Under the pieces are notes generated by a model, which saw only the letters and a program-made list of their open reading frames with translations, did no database searches and was not told where the DNA came from. From the NCBI RefSeq assembly GCF_022870865.1, contig NZ_CP091508.1, forward strand, positions 930,001-994,000: a DNA stretch of 64,000 nt. The letters run 5' to 3'. Positions 46,029-52,758 of this stretch are shown one piece after another; within the stretch, counting starts at the first letter, position 1, and each line of letters opens with the position of its first letter. The stretch comes from Uruburuella testudinis (lineage in GTDB: Bacteria; Pseudomonadota; Gammaproteobacteria; Burkholderiales; Neisseriaceae). The translations under genes were made by a program, and so were the position numbers.

Positions 46029-46340
46029 TTACCCCCACCCTAATCCTCCCCCGTTGGGACGGGGAGGGAACCGAATGCGGCAACCTCAAGCGAATGTGGC
46101 AACCTCAAGCGAATGCGGCAACCTCAAGCGAATGTGGCAACCTCAAGCGAATGCGGCAACCTCAAGCGAATGCGGCAACCTCAAGCGAATGTCGCAACCT
46201 CAAGCGAATGCGGCAACCTCAAGCGAATGCGGCAACCTCAAGCGAATGTCGCAACCTCAAGCGAATGTCGCAACCTCAAGCGAATGCCGCAACCTCAAAT
46301 GGATAACGCCGGATAACTTCATTTCGCCAACCCGATAGTT
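46029..46340. repeat. Family-C repeat carrying a 12-copy 19-bp minisatellite
   Basis: The frame TTTACCCCCACCCTAATCC ... GGGAACCGAATG and the closing GCCGGATAACTTC ... GCCAACCCG match the copy at 23453-23550. Between them, CAACCTCAA recurs exactly every 19 bases twelve times (first at 46081, last at 46290). Units differ only at the two bases after GAATG (TG, CG, TC, CC before GC). All three forward frames stay open because 19 is not a multiple of 3 and the unit has no stop. Confidence 0.92.
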
Positions 46341-46443: not shown

Positions 46444-47838
46444 TTAAAAGGTTTTGCTGAAGGTGAGGTTCAATTGTTTGCTGTGGCTGTCGTAAAGGGC
46501 GATATTCGAGCGGGTGCGGCTGTATTGCAGTGCCAGTTCGGGGGCGATGCCGCGCCATTGCCAATTGCGTTTGAGGGCGGTCAGGCGGCCGCTGTAGCGT
46601 TGTTCGCGCCGGGTTTGTTTGAAAAAAGCCGCTTCGCCGCGATAGCGGGTGTGTTGGTAGCCGATGTGGGCGCCGAGGGTGAGCTGCTGCCAGTTGAAGT
46701 TGTGCCGCAGTGAGGCTTCGGTGCCGATGCTGTCGAAGCTGTAGGCTTTTTCTTCGGCGCGGTTGATGCCGCCGTAGAGCGAGGTACGGTAGTCGGTGCG
46801 GCCGCCGGCGGTGCCGCTGATGCCGGTGTTGAACCAATGCTGGTGGGCGCGCATGTAGCGGTATTCGGGGCGGTAGTGCAGTTGTTGGCTCTCCCAGCCG
46901 GCAAACCATTGTTTGTTGCTGCCCCACGGTTGTGCATAATCGATTTTGACAATGGCGCCCAAATAGAGTGCGCGTTGACGGTATTGTACATGCTGTATGC
47001 CGACGGCGGCTTGCAGGTGGCGGCGGCTGCCGTGCGGGCTGAGGGTGCGGCCGAGCAGGGCGCGGGTGTAGAGGCTGTCGTTGTGGCGGCCGCTGTGTTC
47101 CTGCCAGGCGGCCATGCCTTCGGCAAACCAGCGGTGTTGGTGGCCGAAACGGTAGCGGCCGCCTGCCTGTATGTTGAGCCCTATGCCGGATTTTGCGCGG
47201 TTGTCGGGGCTGAGCGTGAAGGTTTCGCCGTTGATTTCTACGGTTTCGTGGCGGCTGCCTTGGTTGATGTTGCTGCCGGGGGCGAGGGTGGCGCTGACCT
47301 GCCAGGTGAGGCGCTCGCGCTTGATGGCTTGCAAATAGCGTTCGACGTTTTTCTGCACGGCTTCGGGCAGCGCCAGGCTTTGTGCCAGGCGGAAGTGGTA
47401 TTCGGCGGCTTCGGCATCGCCACTTTGCCATAAGGATTTTGCCAATTCCAAACGCGGGCGCGGCAGGTTGCTGTTGTGTTCGAGCATTTGGCGGTAATAG
47501 GCGGCGGCTTGTTTGGGCTGTTGCCGCTGTTCGGCAATCTGCCCGGCGAGAAACAGGGCATCCAGATTGTTGGGTTCGGCAGCCAATAGTGCGTTGATTT
47601 GTGCCTCAGCCTGCGTCCAGCGGCTGTGTTTCATGGCGTTTAGCACCGGGGCGAGCGGGTGCGGCACGTGGGCGACGTCTGCCGGCGGCAGGGCTTCAGG
47701 CGGTGTGGCGGGGGGCTCGGACAGCGGTTGGGAATGGTCGTGCGGCCGGTATTCGGGCGGCACGGGGACGGCTATTTCGGGGTTTTGGGCTTGGGCGGCG
47801 GCGCTGAGGCCGCACAATATCAATAAGAGGATGCGCAT
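46444..47838 (-). CDS. Slam-type surface lipoprotein assembly modulator
   Basis: Slam proteins move lipoproteins across the outer membrane to the cell surface. The 464-residue protein (from ATG 47838; a TTG nine bases earlier is possible) has a signal peptide ending AAAQA-Q and a Pro-rich linker (about 20-55). A tetratricopeptide segment follows (about 60-175: LDALFLAGQIAEQRQQPKQAAAYYRQML). The C-terminal half is an alternating-residue beta-barrel ending in the outer-membrane signature LNLTFSKTF. This order (periplasmic TPR plus DUF560 barrel) is the Slam plan. It lies behind a lipoprotein gene and a TonB-dependent receptor, so its client is probably that lipoprotein. Confidence 0.85.
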   Translation of the reverse strand: MRILLLILCGLSAAAQAQNPEIAVPVPPEYRPHDHSQPLSEPPATPPEALPPADVAHVPHPLAPVLNAMKHSRWTQAEAQINALLAAEPNNLDALFLAGQIAEQRQQPKQAAAYYRQMLEHNSNLPRPRLELAKSLWQSGDAEAAEYHFRLAQSLALPEAVQKNVERYLQAIKRERLTWQVSATLAPGSNINQGSRHETVEINGETFTLSPDNRAKSGIGLNIQAGGRYRFGHQHRWFAEGMAAWQEHSGRHNDSLYTRALLGRTLSPHGSRRHLQAAVGIQHVQYRQRALYLGAIVKIDYAQPWGSNKQWFAGWESQQLHYRPEYRYMRAHQHWFNTGISGTAGGRTDYRTSLYGGINRAEEKAYSFDSIGTEASLRHNFNWQQLTLGAHIGYQHTRYRGEAAFFKQTRREQRYSGRLTALKRNWQWRGIAPELALQYSRTRSNIALYDSHSKQLNLTFSKTF

Positions 47839-47863
47839 GGTTTTCAAGATTTTATGGGTGGTT

Positions 47864-47876
47864 AGGACACCCTAGG
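47864..47876. repeat. Solo end of a MITE-like element
   Basis: AGGACACCCTAGG matches the outer end of the MITE-like family and lies about 25 bases upstream of the Slam start. No other part of the element is visible. Confidence 0.35.
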
Positions 47877-47882
47877 TAAAAC

Positions 47883-47931
47883 AGGCCGTCTGAATGGTTG
47901 CTTGCGGCTTTCAGACGGCCTGTGTGGTGGT
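47883..47931 (-). terminator. DUS inverted pair between lipoprotein and Slam genes
   Basis: AGGCCGTCTGAA (47883-47894) and TTCAGACGGCCT (47920-47931), a 12-bp stem with a 25-base loop. It may reduce transcription into Slam. Confidence 0.55.
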
Positions 47932-48063
47932 TGGGCAACTTGCCATCGGTTTGATACACGGCTACCGGAAAACAAGGATGTTGTTGGATGGCGACCCAAC
48001 CCAACTTGCGTTTCCGCCGTTTGCCGTGTGTTCAGCTTGCAAACGGCAGAGGGGTTATCCGCT

Positions 48064-49467
48064 TCAGTTGCGTTTGCCGCCAAAGCCGCCGATAAATGAT
48101 TGTGTTTTATCGGTGTTCTGCACGCCGAACACGCCGCCGACTTCTTCGGCTTTGGGGCCGTAGAAGCGGCCTTGCATTTGGCCGCTCAGTTTTTGGTCGG
48201 CGGTGTTGACGGTGCCGTTAAAGCTGTTTTTTCCGGCATCCCAGGCGGCGCTGCCGCTCAAATTCAGATGGCCTGCGTCTTGCAAAGAGCTGCCGTTGTA
48301 TTGGCGGGTGTTGTCGGTGGTGAAGTTGAGCTTGCGTTCGCCAAAGTTGGCATAGACGCGGCTGTCGGCGATGGTTTGTATCGGGGTTTGCTGACGGGCG
48401 GAATATTCACCGCCGGCAAAACCTTTGTATTCGGCACTGCCGGTGGTGGGCAGGTTGGCGGCTTCGGTGGGCAGACCGATGCTTTGGTAGCCTCTGGAGG
48501 TCAGCAGTTGGTCGCTGTTTTGCACAAAATAACCGAACGTTTGATAGTTCCAGCCGGCGACGGCCGGGTCGCGCCAAAGGTATTTCAGCGCGGCATCGGC
48601 AGAGCCGCTGTATACACCGCCGGAAGCGCCGCCTGCCGCCAGCCCGGCATCCAGCTGCACATCGGTATTGTGGGGCGCGTTGTTGTCGGTATAGTGTTGC
48701 AGGCGGGCGTTGCTGCCTTTGCCTTCCAGGTAGTCTCCCAAAAAGGCAGCGGCCATATTGCTGTTGCCGTCATGCAGGCCGATGAGTTTGCCGGCATCGT
48801 CATAATAGGCTTTGTGTATGCCGCTCATACGGGCGCGGCCGCCTGCTTTTTCATTGGTGCGGACGGTGTATTCCAGCTCGTCTTTGTTTTCCAGATAGCG
48901 GTCGATGCGCAACACCGTGGGCGAAACCCGCTCGTTTTCTTTGCCTGCTTCATGGTTGTTGAACAGGGTTTCTTTGCTTCCTGCCGCCACTTTCAGAAAC
49001 GAGCCTTCAGCCGGTGCGGGAGCATCGGCTTTGGCAATTGAAGCGGCTTTGCTGGCGCCATCGGGCAGGGCAGGGTTTTCCAAGCCATTGGTAGGCTCGG
49101 GCTTGGGTTGTTCGGGCTCGGGCTTGGGTTGTTCGGGCTCGGGTTTGGGCTGCTCGGGTTCGGGCTTGGGTTGTTCGGGATCAGGCTTGGGCTGCTCGGG
49201 TTCGGGCTTGGGTTGTTCGGGTTCGGGCTTGGGTTGTTCGGGCTCGGGCTTGGGTTGTTCGGGTTCGGGCTTGGGTTGTTCGGGCTCGGGCTTGGGTTGT
49301 TCGGGTTTGGGTTGTTCGGGTTCGGGTGGCGGCACTAACATGGTGTTGTCGGGTGCGTTGACATTGGGTTTGCTGCCGCTGCTGCATGCGCTCAGGCAGA
49401 ATGCGCCGATGATCAGCGCGGCGAGCAGGCTTTTTTTGCCGTTAAAGATTGAATGTGTTGTTTGCAT
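48064..49467 (-). CDS. Surface lipoprotein with PEPEQPK repeats and TbpB-like C-terminal barrel
   Basis: This 467-residue precursor has a lipoprotein signal with lipobox LSAC. Residues about 45-130 are a Pro/Glu/Gln/Lys rod made of ten 7-residue PEPEQPK units (one PDPEQPK) and one 5-residue unit. Residues about 155-467 form a beta-rich domain with features of the transferrin-binding-protein-like/Slam-client group: NYQTFGYFVQ, LPTTGSAEYKGFAGGEY and a terminal GQMQGRFYGPKAEEVGGVFG. Only one such barrel is present, unlike two-lobed TbpB. It is preceded by AAAGGAAA and lies between the receptor and Slam. The ligand is unknown; a haem- or metal-protein is plausible. Confidence 0.82.
   Translation of the reverse strand: MQTTHSIFNGKKSLLAALIIGAFCLSACSSGSKPNVNAPDNTMLVPPPEPEQPKPEQPKPEPEQPKPEPEQPKPEPEQPKPEPEQPKPEPEQPKPDPEQPKPEPEQPKPEPEQPKPEPEQPKPEPTNGLENPALPDGASKAASIAKADAPAPAEGSFLKVAAGSKETLFNNHEAGKENERVSPTVLRIDRYLENKDELEYTVRTNEKAGGRARMSGIHKAYYDDAGKLIGLHDGNSNMAAAFLGDYLEGKGSNARLQHYTDNNAPHNTDVQLDAGLAAGGASGGVYSGSADAALKYLWRDPAVAGWNYQTFGYFVQNSDQLLTSRGYQSIGLPTEAANLPTTGSAEYKGFAGGEYSARQQTPIQTIADSRVYANFGERKLNFTTDNTRQYNGSSLQDAGHLNLSGSAAWDAGKNSFNGTVNTADQKLSGQMQGRFYGPKAEEVGGVFGVQNTDKTQSFIGGFGGKRN
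49090..49330 (-). repeat. In-frame 21-bp tandem repeat encoding PEPEQPK
   Basis: A 21-bp unit (plus strand like CGGGCTTGGGTTGTTCGGG) is repeated about ten times, plus one 15-bp unit. Length changes would keep the frame and alter only the rod length of the lipoprotein. Confidence 0.9.
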
Positions 49468-49575
49468 CGGGTGTTTCCTTTGTTGATACGGGTTTGGTTT
49501 TCAGACGGCCTGTGTATCGTGGCGGGTTGTGGCCGGCCGTGAGCAGGTTTGCATATGCCAACGGCCGGGAGGCGC

Positions 49576-52104
49576 TTAAAACTTGATTTCCAAAGTGGCG
49601 GCAAAATTGCGCCCCGGGGCGGTCAGCCGTTGGATGCCGTTGCCGCCGATGGTGGTGTTGCCGGAGGTGGAAATACCGTTTACGCCGAGCTGGCGCAGTG
49701 ATTCCCATTGGGTGTATTTGCGGTTGAACACGTTATACACGCCGCCGCGCAAGGTGGTGTGCTTGCCCCAGCGGTACCAGCCGCTCACATCGAGCGTGGT
49801 CCATTTTTTGCTTAATGCGGGAATGGGCGCGGTGGTCACGGTTTCTCCTTTGGCGGGGTGCCATTGGAGCCGCTTGTTTTCTTCGGCTTTTTTGGGCATT
49901 GAATGTATGACGCGGCTGCCCAAGCCCCAGTTGCCTGCGGGGGCGTCGTAGTCCAAGCCCCACACCAGGCGGGCAGGTTGCAGGGTGTCCATCATGTAAT
50001 TGGTGTTGATGAAATTATCTTGATTACCATCGAGCTGCGTGTTTGTTTTGCGCGGTTTGCTGATGCTGTAGGCCAGTGTGGTGCTCAAGCCCTCGGGCAG
50101 CCAAGGGTGCAGCTCGTGCAGGTCGCCCTGAATGCGGATATCCCAGCCCCATGTGTGGGCATCTTGAATGTTGCCGTATACGGTGGCGGTGGATGTGTCG
50201 GCTTTTTTCTGCCCCAGCAGATTGCGGTAATCAGCCCGGAAGGCGCTGATGCGGGCGTTGCCCAAGCGGCCTTTGAGGGTCAGCCCCAGCTCTTGGTTGA
50301 GGGCTTGTTCGGGCTTCATGGGCTCGTCGACTTTTTTGATGTGTTTGTTTCTGTCGCCGGGGTAAATCATGGCGGAGCTGTAAAGCTCGAGTGCTGAGGG
50401 CACGCGGAAACCGCTGCCGGCCAGGTAGGCCAGCTCGATGTGCCGGTTGGGGGCGAAGGCTAAGCCGGCATTCCAAGAGGTGTTGCGGTATTTGCTGTTG
50501 CCGACGAAGCGGTTGTCGGATTGGTAGCGGTAGTAGTCGTGGCGCACACCCAGCGGCAGGGAGAAGTATTGCCCCAAGCTGATGTTGTCGCTGAGCGCCA
50601 GAAAGTAGTGTTTGCTGTCGATCGGCTCAAGCTGGTTGCTTTCGGCGATAACGGTTTGGGTGGTGCGTTTGCAACCTTGATCTTGCCAAGAACCGCCGTT
50701 TGCAACGCAGGGGTAATCGGTTTCGATACCGCGGCGCAGGTAGTTGGTTTTTGCACGGAACGTGCCTTTGCTGATGCCGGCGGCCAGTTGCAGCCGGTGG
50801 CTGCTGAAGCCCCAATCGATGTTTTTATCGATATCGATGCGCAGGCGTTTGTTGTTTTCGCGGGTGCCGGTCAGGGTGTCGGCCGACCATTGCCCATCTG
50901 CTTCCGGCACGCAGTCGCGGCTCAGGTTTTGGGCGCAGCGGCGGCGGCTGAGGGTGTTTTCCATATCCACGCTCTGGCTGTCGGCCGATACTTTGATGTT
51001 GTCGGGCGACCATTTGCCCGGCTCTGCGGCGCTGTAGCGGTATTCGATACCGAAACGGCGCTTGTGGTGGTGGTTGTCTTGAAACAGGGTGCTGAAGTTG
51101 CGGAGGCGGTCGCCTTCGGTCGATGACCTGCTGGATTGGGTGGTCGGAAACACCGGGTGGGTCATGTCTTGGGTGTTGAATTTTTGGGTGGTGTCTTCAA
51201 AAATCAGGCCGGCGTAATGTTCGTTGTTGAAATGATAGCCGCCGCGCAACAGCCATGAAGCCGAGCGGTAGTCCATCGGGTTGGGCACTTCGCGGGTGGG
51301 CCCCCACACATCTTCGGCGGCATAGGTGCTTTGGTATTGGCAAGGGCCGCCGGCGCGGGTGCAGTCTTGGGGTTTGTAGAAATAAGTGAGCGTTTGCGGC
51401 GCAGTGTCGGCGTGCGACTTGATTTCATGACCGCTGCGGTGGGTAAATTGCGCCAGGCCTTCAAAGCCGCCGGCGCGGCCGGCCACGGCCAGGCTGTTGA
51501 CGCGGCGGCCGTCTTTGCTGCTGAAGCTGTTTTTATAATCCATGCCCCAGTTTTGGCCGGGCTTGATCACATCGTCGGCTTCTTTGGTGGTAAACATCAC
51601 TGCGCCGCCCATGGCGCCGCTGCCGCCGGCAACCGAGTTGGCGCCTTTTTCAATCGACACTTCTTTGATGTTTTCGTATTCGATTTCATTGATGGCACCG
51701 CCGTATTCGCCTTGCTGCTGCCAGGTGCCGCCGGGGCTGAATACTTGGCCTTGCGCCATGCCGTCGACCAAAATGGCCACGCGGTTGCGGTCGACGCCGC
51801 GTATCGAGTAGCCCGATGAGGCGCCTTGGCCTTGCTCGTTGACGGCGATGCCGGGGTCGTAGCGGGTGAGGTCGCGGATGTTGTTGACTTGCTCTTTGCG
51901 GATGGTGTCGGCTGTTTTGGTGATGGTGGTAAGGTTTTCCTGCTTTTTGGCGCGCTTGCCGGTAACCTGCACTTCTTCGAGCTGGCTGCTGGCTTCGGCA
52001 TTAGCGGGGGCGTCGGCCGCATAAGCTGCGGTGGCGGCCATGCTGCTCAAAGCCAATAAAATGCAGCGTGACAAATAACGCCGCTGCGTGGTAATGGTTT
52101 TCAT
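49576..52104 (-). CDS. TonB-dependent outer-membrane receptor, TbpA/HpuB-like
   Basis: The 842-residue receptor has a signal peptide ending AAYAA-D and a TonB-box-like LEEVQVTGK (42-50). The plug domain has NNIRDLTRYDPGIAVNEQG and GYSIRGVDRNRVAILVDG. A 22-strand barrel follows, ending in NVFNRKYTQWESLRQ and a terminal phenylalanine (LEIKF). Plug and barrel wording (LLRGGYHF, HHKRRFGIEYRY) resembles the transferrin/lactoferrin receptors TbpA/LbpA, and the end resembles HpuB. It is shorter than TbpA (about 910). Cysteine pairs in the loops are retained. It heads the cassette, with AAAGGAAA before ATG 52104. It imports a ligand-derived nutrient, probably iron or haem. Confidence 0.88.
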   Translation of the reverse strand: MKTITTQRRYLSRCILLALSSMAATAAYAADAPANAEASSQLEEVQVTGKRAKKQENLTTITKTADTIRKEQVNNIRDLTRYDPGIAVNEQGQGASSGYSIRGVDRNRVAILVDGMAQGQVFSPGGTWQQQGEYGGAINEIEYENIKEVSIEKGANSVAGGSGAMGGAVMFTTKEADDVIKPGQNWGMDYKNSFSSKDGRRVNSLAVAGRAGGFEGLAQFTHRSGHEIKSHADTAPQTLTYFYKPQDCTRAGGPCQYQSTYAAEDVWGPTREVPNPMDYRSASWLLRGGYHFNNEHYAGLIFEDTTQKFNTQDMTHPVFPTTQSSRSSTEGDRLRNFSTLFQDNHHHKRRFGIEYRYSAAEPGKWSPDNIKVSADSQSVDMENTLSRRRCAQNLSRDCVPEADGQWSADTLTGTRENNKRLRIDIDKNIDWGFSSHRLQLAAGISKGTFRAKTNYLRRGIETDYPCVANGGSWQDQGCKRTTQTVIAESNQLEPIDSKHYFLALSDNISLGQYFSLPLGVRHDYYRYQSDNRFVGNSKYRNTSWNAGLAFAPNRHIELAYLAGSGFRVPSALELYSSAMIYPGDRNKHIKKVDEPMKPEQALNQELGLTLKGRLGNARISAFRADYRNLLGQKKADTSTATVYGNIQDAHTWGWDIRIQGDLHELHPWLPEGLSTTLAYSISKPRKTNTQLDGNQDNFINTNYMMDTLQPARLVWGLDYDAPAGNWGLGSRVIHSMPKKAEENKRLQWHPAKGETVTTAPIPALSKKWTTLDVSGWYRWGKHTTLRGGVYNVFNRKYTQWESLRQLGVNGISTSGNTTIGGNGIQRLTAPGRNFAATLEIKF

Positions 52105-52154
52105 CTACTGCTTTCCTTTGTTAAATAAACGAGTAAGAACTTTAAATTGCGTAA

Positions 52155-52192
52155 GAAACAATTATTATATTTAAAAACGTTTGTTTAGTAAA
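52155..52192 (-). promoter_or_regulatory. Probable promoter with possible Fur-like site for the receptor cassette
   Basis: On the minus strand: TTTACT (52192-52187), a 17-base spacer, TATAAT (52169-52164). The AT-rich ATATAATAATTGTTTC overlapping the -10 is a loose match to a Fur box. The match is weak and could be chance in AT-rich DNA. Confidence 0.4.
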
Positions 52193-52292
52193 TTGAAATT
52201 ATTCTTGTTTGTATAACATGTGTATATTAATAAGCAAATCAAGTAAATAAGTTGAAACGGCACATCAGCAAGCATGCGGGTTTCAGACGGCC

Positions 52293-52437
52293 TGGGGTGT
52301 TTTGATCATTCGATTTACGGGTGTTTTTTTCCCTGAAAACGCATCCGCTGCGTTAAGAAGCCTCGCAAGATACCCAATCTTGCTGCGTTTTTTGCTCTTG
52401 AAAATGCATCTGCACATCGAATGTTTTGACAACCTTA
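52293..52437. repeat. MITE-like element, diverged copy upstream of the receptor
   Basis: Left end GGGGTGTTTTGATCATTCG, centre GCAAGATACCCAATCTTGC, right end CGAATGTTTTGACAACCTTA. Right arm shortened. Confidence 0.6.
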
Positions 52438-52590: not shown

Positions 52591-52690
52591 TAGGGTATTC
52601 TGACAATTCAGAATTATTCAGATTTTTTGCCTGGCATCTGCATTTCCAGGAATAAAAATCCCCTCATAAACGACACATCAGGACACCCTA
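52591..52690. repeat. MITE-like element with internal deletion
   Basis: TAGGGTATTCTGACAATTCA at the left and CATCAGGACACCCTA at the right, only 100 bases long; the central hairpin is missing but both termini are intact. Confidence 0.7.
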
Positions 52691-52758
52691 GAAGACTCAT
52701 GGCTGTGCCGGCCGCCTATCTGCCGGCGCTGTTGAAGCTTAATCGGCTGAAATCGTTT

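Follow-up and report, generated by a model that had tools for sequence, protein, structure and literature searches.

Does a gene cassette that joins a TonB-dependent receptor of the Tbp/Lbp type to a single-lobe lipoprotein and a Slam-type exporter belong to one of the known classes of iron or heme acquisition system? The question is raised by a stretch of 64,000 nucleotides from Uruburuella testudinis (contig NZ_CP091508.1, positions 930,001 to 994,000; hereafter the window), in which three open reading frames on the minus strand occupy positions 46444-52104 in the order receptor, lipoprotein, Slam. This cassette was first described from the sequence alone, and the open reading frames, their translations and the Pfam domains bear out that description. 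The unit is not a classic TbpAB, LbpAB or HpuAB system, as the sequence-only reading had suspected, because its receptor and its Slam each fall in a distinct clade and its lipoprotein in a distinct family. The classic assignments were rejected on the receptor tree, on the loop 3 and plug rows of the receptor alignment, and on the lipoprotein profiles. It is highly probable that the cassette serves TonB-dependent uptake of some nutrient and that its lipoprotein is a cargo of the Slam type; transferrin is the ligand toward which we lean.

The receptor is of the Tbp type and lies outside the TbpA/LbpA clade

The receptor contains the Plug and TonB-dependent barrel domains of Pfam, and it scores 709.3 bits on the NCBIfam model of the Tbp/Lbp subfamily (TIGR01776), where the cut-off is 468.8 bits. 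The test is not specific, since the cut-off is also passed by two receptors that are both outside TbpA/LbpA (P0151 and P0180). Two HpuB-type control receptors fall below it, with 381.6 and 381.8 bits, and the BLAST identity of the window receptor to seven HpuB-type receptors is 27-30%. The closest solved structure is that of TbpA. The sequence-only reading had found wording of both TbpA/LbpA and HpuB in this receptor; the Tbp/Lbp part of that claim stands on these scores, and the HpuB part is weakly borne out.

The listing of receptor relatives covers 120 of 164 matches, and a receptor tree was made by a quick method. The window receptor falls outside the 23-row TbpA/LbpA clade, with a value of 100 in the Shimodaira-Hasegawa-like approximate likelihood ratio test (SH-aLRT), and it falls outside the HpuB clade also. 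The HpuB-, TbpA- and LbpA-type labels of loci were assigned by us, with HpuA and TbpB neighbors checked and LbpA recognized by 85% identity to a named LbpA; the HpuB clade takes its label from the neighboring lipoprotein of locus L099, whose match to solved HpuA has E = 2.2e-95. The rows of the tree and of the counts below include near-duplicates (G047rec with P0082, and P0180 with L085_866), and the row own943, a long branch in the tree, was excluded from the 133 rows in which motif and loop were counted. The locus of the last-named duplicate has another layout, with a 602-amino acid lipoprotein, an 866-amino acid receptor matching P0180 at 99%, an unplaced 491-amino acid protein and a Slam (L085, 3925-11684, in genome G006, Neisseria sp. 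S1-type).

The plug motif EIEYE is reported to be needed by TbpA for the use of iron from transferrin, and to be present in LbpA as well (PMC6965322). We find it in 93 of 98 Tbp/Lbp-type rows and in 11 of the 15 rows of the clade of the window receptor, the rest having EMEVE (two rows), EVEVE (one) and EVEIE (one). An 8-row clade has EIEFE (seven) or EIEIE (one), and a 5-row group has EVEYE (three) or EVEFE (two). None of the seven HpuB-type rows contains EIEYE, its place being taken by TSEPE (three), AAELE (three) and AAEIE (one).

Loop 3 of TbpA holds a helix finger, and its complete deletion is reported to have disabled gonococcal TbpA (PMC6965322). In the window receptor loop 3 has 24 residues, close to the median of 25 in its own clade (range 22-39). 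The median is 50.5 in the Tbp/Lbp-type rows (range 37-64) and 21 in the HpuB-type rows (range 16-21). The loop is short in two further groups, the 8-row clade with a median of 29 residues and the 5-row group with one of 30. The helix finger of TbpA is not present in the window receptor, and the predicted model has no helix at that position. With EIEYE kept and a loop of this length without a helix, the receptor therefore combines a plug of the Tbp type with a loop 3 about as long as in HpuB.

The short loop brings to mind an HpuAB-like system for heme or hemoglobin, in which hemoglobin, alone or in a complex, would be collected by a single-lobe lipoprotein and its heme taken up through the receptor. 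HpuA/HpuB with Slam2 is alike in its single-lobe lipoprotein and its adjoining Slam gene also. We nevertheless think this route improbable, as the receptor stands outside the HpuB clade, at the low identities given above, and carries the EIEYE motif that the HpuB-type rows lack. A Tbp-like channel might otherwise serve another ligand, be it some other iron protein of the host, a ferric complex or the carrier of a metal other than iron, with the lipoprotein as its capture arm. The missing helix finger would suit this, as would the occurrence of a related receptor above the cut-off of the same family model in a bacterium whose name indicates no vertebrate host (P0151, from Pusillimonas sp. ANT_WB101, with 687.8 bits and an EVEFE plug). 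The strict EIEYE motif, as in TbpA and LbpA, argues in the other direction, and we assign a low probability to such a channel.

The lipoprotein has one lobe and groups apart from TbpB

Pfam finds TbpB_B_D in the lipoprotein as a single stretch (residues 339-466, 54.7 bits against a cut-off of 26), and the PEPEQPK repeat has 10.1 copies, in agreement with the rod and the single TbpB-like C-terminal domain that had been described from the sequence. On the NCBIfam model slam_lipo the protein scores 44.2 bits, below the cut-off of 80. All nine aligned cassette lipoproteins have one lobe, and the lipobox Cys28 is invariant in them; the relatives are 355-393 amino acids long, and the rod has no counterpart in the eight that were aligned. 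The handle part of the lipoprotein model is of low confidence.

Profile searches against TbpB, LbpB, HpuA and the hemophilins, proposed as a check in the sequence-only reading, place the lipoprotein in none of these families. The first such search of the PDB pointed to the C-lobe of TbpB (5kkx, E = 3.5e-9), and the match of the lipoprotein profile to TbpB/LbpB has E = 1.4e-9. Far stronger is the match of the C-terminal 190 residues to a separate lipoprotein set (hhalign probability 100, 42% identity, E = 8.4e-55), comprising P0011, P0060 and relatives, which has the working name AGW-YQTFG and was itself retrieved with the window lipoprotein as query. HpuA is matched at E = 1.5e-5 across 66 barrel columns only. 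Solved hemophilins are matched at E = 0.039-0.05 (best profile value E = 0.00049), whereas the genome's own hemophilin, a positive control, matches PDB 8gm3 at E = 2.5e-35. On these values we rejected the proposals that the lipoprotein is a TbpB without its N-lobe and that it is a hemophilin. Apparently it did not arise from TbpB by loss of a lobe, and its C-terminal module would belong with the separate set. Members of that set are alike in the C-terminal 190 residues and differ from the window lipoprotein in the N-terminal part. No receptor resembling our reference panel is present at their loci L035-L037, L086, L087 and L107, where receptors of other kinds would escape detection; at L095 a Slam adjoins.

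An ordinary but diverged TbpAB or LbpAB receptor, for transferrin or lactoferrin, could explain the score on the subfamily model, the EIEYE motif, the TbpB-type barrel and the preference of the PDB search for the TbpB C-lobe. Yet it would be hard to reconcile with the position of the receptor in a clade of its own in the quick tree, with the absence of the finger, or with a partner that has one lobe throughout the aligned cassettes and matches another set so much better than TbpB/LbpB, and we regard it as very improbable. The limited match to HpuA counts further against an HpuAB-like route. Descent of the lipoprotein separate from TbpB is a point in favor of a channel for some other ligand.

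A private Slam lineage and the hosts of its carriers

The third protein scores 65.1 bits on SlipAM in Pfam (cut-off 22), confirming that it is a Slam-type protein. TPR_Slam reaches 30.9 bits, below its cut-off of 35.2, and general TPR models match. The gene adjoins that of a cargo with a C-terminal TbpB-type barrel. In a search of about 5.8 billion proteins, seven of 7996 word-sharing candidates matched this Slam with E ≤ 0.001; the method finds close relatives only, because distant Slams share too few words. The seven are the window's own protein, those of Pasteurella testudinis, Chelonobacter oris and Testudinibacter sp. TR-2022, and three of unnamed source. A tree of 18 Slams has a fully supported clade of eight rows, made up of the window Slam, the six other search matches and the Slam of another Neisseriaceae genus (genome G047); among the ten rows outside it are the two other Slams of the window's genome and the Slams linked to HpuA.

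The reported source of Chelonobacter oris is a tortoise in captivity that showed respiratory signs (PMC4271167). P. testudinis is described as a common inhabitant of the nasal passages in tortoises of the genus Gopherus, in a paper in which P. testudinis and Chelonobacter are not separable (PMC6227988). Testudinibacter includes T. aquarius and T. crocodili, with hosts inferred from the names. All three named genera with a matching Slam are thus tortoise-associated or reptile-named, in what is a small sample, and this association with animals by source or name argues against a channel for another ferric or metal ligand. Among the matches listed, the wider receptor clades also extend to a bin of Moraxella sp. 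(P0102) and to many contigs without a name.

The cassette is kept in different genomic settings

The same three-gene order occurs in G047, with identities of 65% for the receptor, 58% for the lipoprotein (residues 166-466) and 59% for the Slam, and in P. testudinis DSM 23072 (L034), with 38%, 41% (residues 210-466) and 42%, respectively. Going by names given from translations, several of them presumed by us, the cassette is flanked by clpX and recG in the window, by an mnmE-like gene and a transposase-like open reading frame in G047, and by cys-like genes and a prs-like gene in P. testudinis. With the order kept in three different settings the cassette is therefore more than a chance cluster of three genes, and we rejected that explanation. 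Relatives of all three proteins (P0003, P0083 and P0203) each lie on a contig of 7102 bases, presumably the same one; sharing of a contig, here and for one of 12888 bases, was read from equal base counts. In Chelonobacter oris the locus tags of the receptor (04890) and the Slam (04900) leave space for one gene between them. Gene content was covered for four of ten loci (L034-L037), the other six matching at 29-36%.

Within the genus, no lipoprotein match in 45 other genomes exceeds 127.2 bits, and the matches cover the C-terminal part (the longest, in G001, residues 178-466) or the rod only. One of 14 other genomes of the family has a long match, namely G047 with 61% over residues 109-466. Across the class, 369 genomes were sampled, and the lipoprotein profile matched three times: in the window, in G360, where the match is a lipoprotein of the P0060 type, and in G233, where it is a short fragment. 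Neither of the latter two comes with a cassette. This patchy spread across Neisseriaceae and Pasteurellaceae suggests that the cassette may have moved between the two families as one unit. The spacing of clpX and recG is about 7 kb in the window and at least about 37 kb in the other genomes of the genus that have both on one contig; in the remainder they lie on separate contigs, or one was not found at threshold (G015, G018, G022). No insertion point can therefore be named, and no empty site was identified in these genomes. A published phylogeny is reported to place Uruburuella testudinis within Neisseria (PMC11316581).

Other iron and heme genes of the genome

A second Slam cassette in the genome encodes a Slam of 481 amino acids, a hemophilin of 250 and a TonB-dependent receptor of 943 (L084 3961-9324; G000:C1 about 1757960-1763323). 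Given this cassette, heme appears to be served elsewhere in the genome, which further lowers the probability of an HpuAB-like role for the window cassette. A third Slam, of 487 amino acids, adjoins a 489-amino acid lipoprotein (L089 1864-4879; G000:C1 about 499863-502878), with no panel receptor in the 10-kb stretch. Locus L088 (8315-9169) encodes a lipoprotein of 284 amino acids that scores 22.7 bits on TbpB_B_D, below the cut-off, and is distant from any Slam found.

The genome encodes a ferric-iron binding protein of the FbpA type (E = 2.6e-157 to 7li0). HpuB-type and Tbp/Lbp-type receptors of related genomes match the window receptor at about 1e-61 or better (60 genomes, with G047 set aside), and with the same query the genome has no second receptor of that strength. 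Its best other match, at C1:1363658-1365810, consists of three pieces that are 30-39% identical to the query (best E = 2.6e-26) and occupy two open frames or more, and this receptor gene is possibly interrupted.

Fur-box-like sites precede the receptor genes of P. testudinis (15 of 19 positions) and G047 (14 of 19), and none of 200 shuffles reaches either value. Upstream of the window receptor the best site has 12 of 19, which 42% of shuffles reach, and is not significant; nor is that upstream of the hemophilin-linked receptor.

Features of the cassette

The coordinates are collected in Table 1. For the Slam, an in-frame ATG at 47838, three codons in and ahead of a signal-peptide-like stretch, is in our reading the likelier start. 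The receptor upstream region has three promoter-like sites where 3.2 are expected, and therefore gives no evidence of promoter function. Directly downstream of the Slam gene lies a 19-bp tandem repeat of 11.9 copies (46072-46298). The sequence CTAGGGTGTCCT occurs twice on the minus strand, before the Slam gene (47864-47875) and upstream of the receptor gene (52680-52691), and inverted repeats of the DNA-uptake type are present between and after the cassette genes.

Table 1. Features of the receptor, lipoprotein and Slam cassette, in window coordinates
Feature	Position	Strand	Basis
TonB-dependent receptor, Tbp/Lbp type, 842 amino acids	49576..52104	minus	open reading frame, Pfam, TIGR01776, tree, structure comparison
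Stretch that we take to be TonB-box-like, receptor residues 42-49	51958..51981	minus	sequence; aligned with same stretch of TbpA-type rows
EIEYE plug motif, receptor residues 140-144	51673..51687	minus	alignment
Short loop 3, receptor residues 313-336, without TbpA helix finger	51097..51168	minus	alignment and model
Lipoprotein, Slam-cargo type, 467 amino acids	48064..49467	minus	open reading frame, Pfam, NCBIfam, alignment, model
Lipobox LSAC, Cys28	49384..49386	minus	sequence; invariant in nine aligned rows
PEPEQPK rod, in-frame 21-bp tandem repeat, 10.1 copies	49094..49305	minus	tandem-repeat analysis
Lipoprotein C-terminal module with WRDPAVAGWNYQTFG, residues 275-467	48067..48645	minus	alignment, profile comparison
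Eight-stranded barrel, TbpB_B_D type, lipoprotein residues 339-466	48070..48453	minus	Pfam and model
Slam: signal peptide, TPR repeats, SlipAM barrel, 467 amino acids counted from TTG	46444..47847	minus	open reading frame, Pfam, tree
Receptor upstream region, 35% G+C, promoter-like site 52192-52164	52105..52404	minus	promoter-like-site scan

A model for the cassette

On balance we favor, by a small degree, a transferrin system in which the lipoprotein captures the ligand, the receptor strips and imports the iron, and the Slam exports the lipoprotein. Exported by the Slam, the lipoprotein would stand on the cell surface, its single handle-and-barrel domain tethered there by the PEPEQPK rod and by the lipid attached to Cys28. 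This domain would capture a host iron carrier, most likely the transferrin of the bacterium's vertebrate host, and hand it to the receptor, which would extract the ferric ion, move it past the EIEYE plug site and import it with energy from TonB. The ferric-iron binding protein and an ABC importer would then carry the iron onward. Release of the iron would have to follow a route other than that of TbpA, because the receptor lacks the loop 3 finger that TbpA inserts into the C-lobe of transferrin.

A more far-reaching proposal is that the cassette represents a separate class of transferrin receptor for reptile transferrin (of tortoises, turtles and perhaps crocodilians), with a finger-less channel, a single-domain co-receptor of non-TbpB origin, a private Slam lineage and transfer of the cassette between Neisseriaceae and Pasteurellaceae. 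This we put forward tentatively, and as a whole consider it rather doubtful.

Relation to known systems

The juxtaposition of receptor, Slam cargo and Slam is no novelty; it is a known layout. A TonB-dependent receptor is reported in 120 of 185 Slam-lipoprotein clusters, and Slam2 with HpuA is a known case (PMC5449769); HphA/HphR/HsmA is an experimental example (PMC8560813), and the architectures of Slam cargos have been surveyed (PMC12282271). The hemophilin cassette HphA-HphR-HsmA shares this arrangement with the window cassette as described (PMC8560813), and differs in its cargo, which the window lipoprotein matches only at the marginal values given above. TbpA2, of ruminant Pasteurellaceae, is described as another transferrin receptor unlike TbpAB (PMC9853020); it functions as a single component without a lipoprotein, whereas the window receptor is paired with one, a comparison made by description only. 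What looks new is that a finger-less clade of Tbp-type receptors is combined with a private Slam lineage and with a single-lobe partner that apparently does not descend from TbpB.

Transferrin receptors in bacteria of reptiles have been foreseen (PMC9853020), and targeted searches of a collection of open-access papers gave no description of transferrin-binding proteins from the tortoise bacteria considered here. The window cassette offers a concrete candidate. It bears also on the extraction of iron by TbpA, since complete deletion of the finger is reported to disable TbpA (PMC6965322), yet the clade of the window receptor keeps the plug motif and lacks the finger. It thereby raises the question of finger-less iron extraction, and that of the role of a single-lobe Slam cargo beside a Tbp-type channel. 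If a separate class for reptile transferrin does exist, transferrin piracy would be possible without a helix finger and without a TbpB of two lobes.

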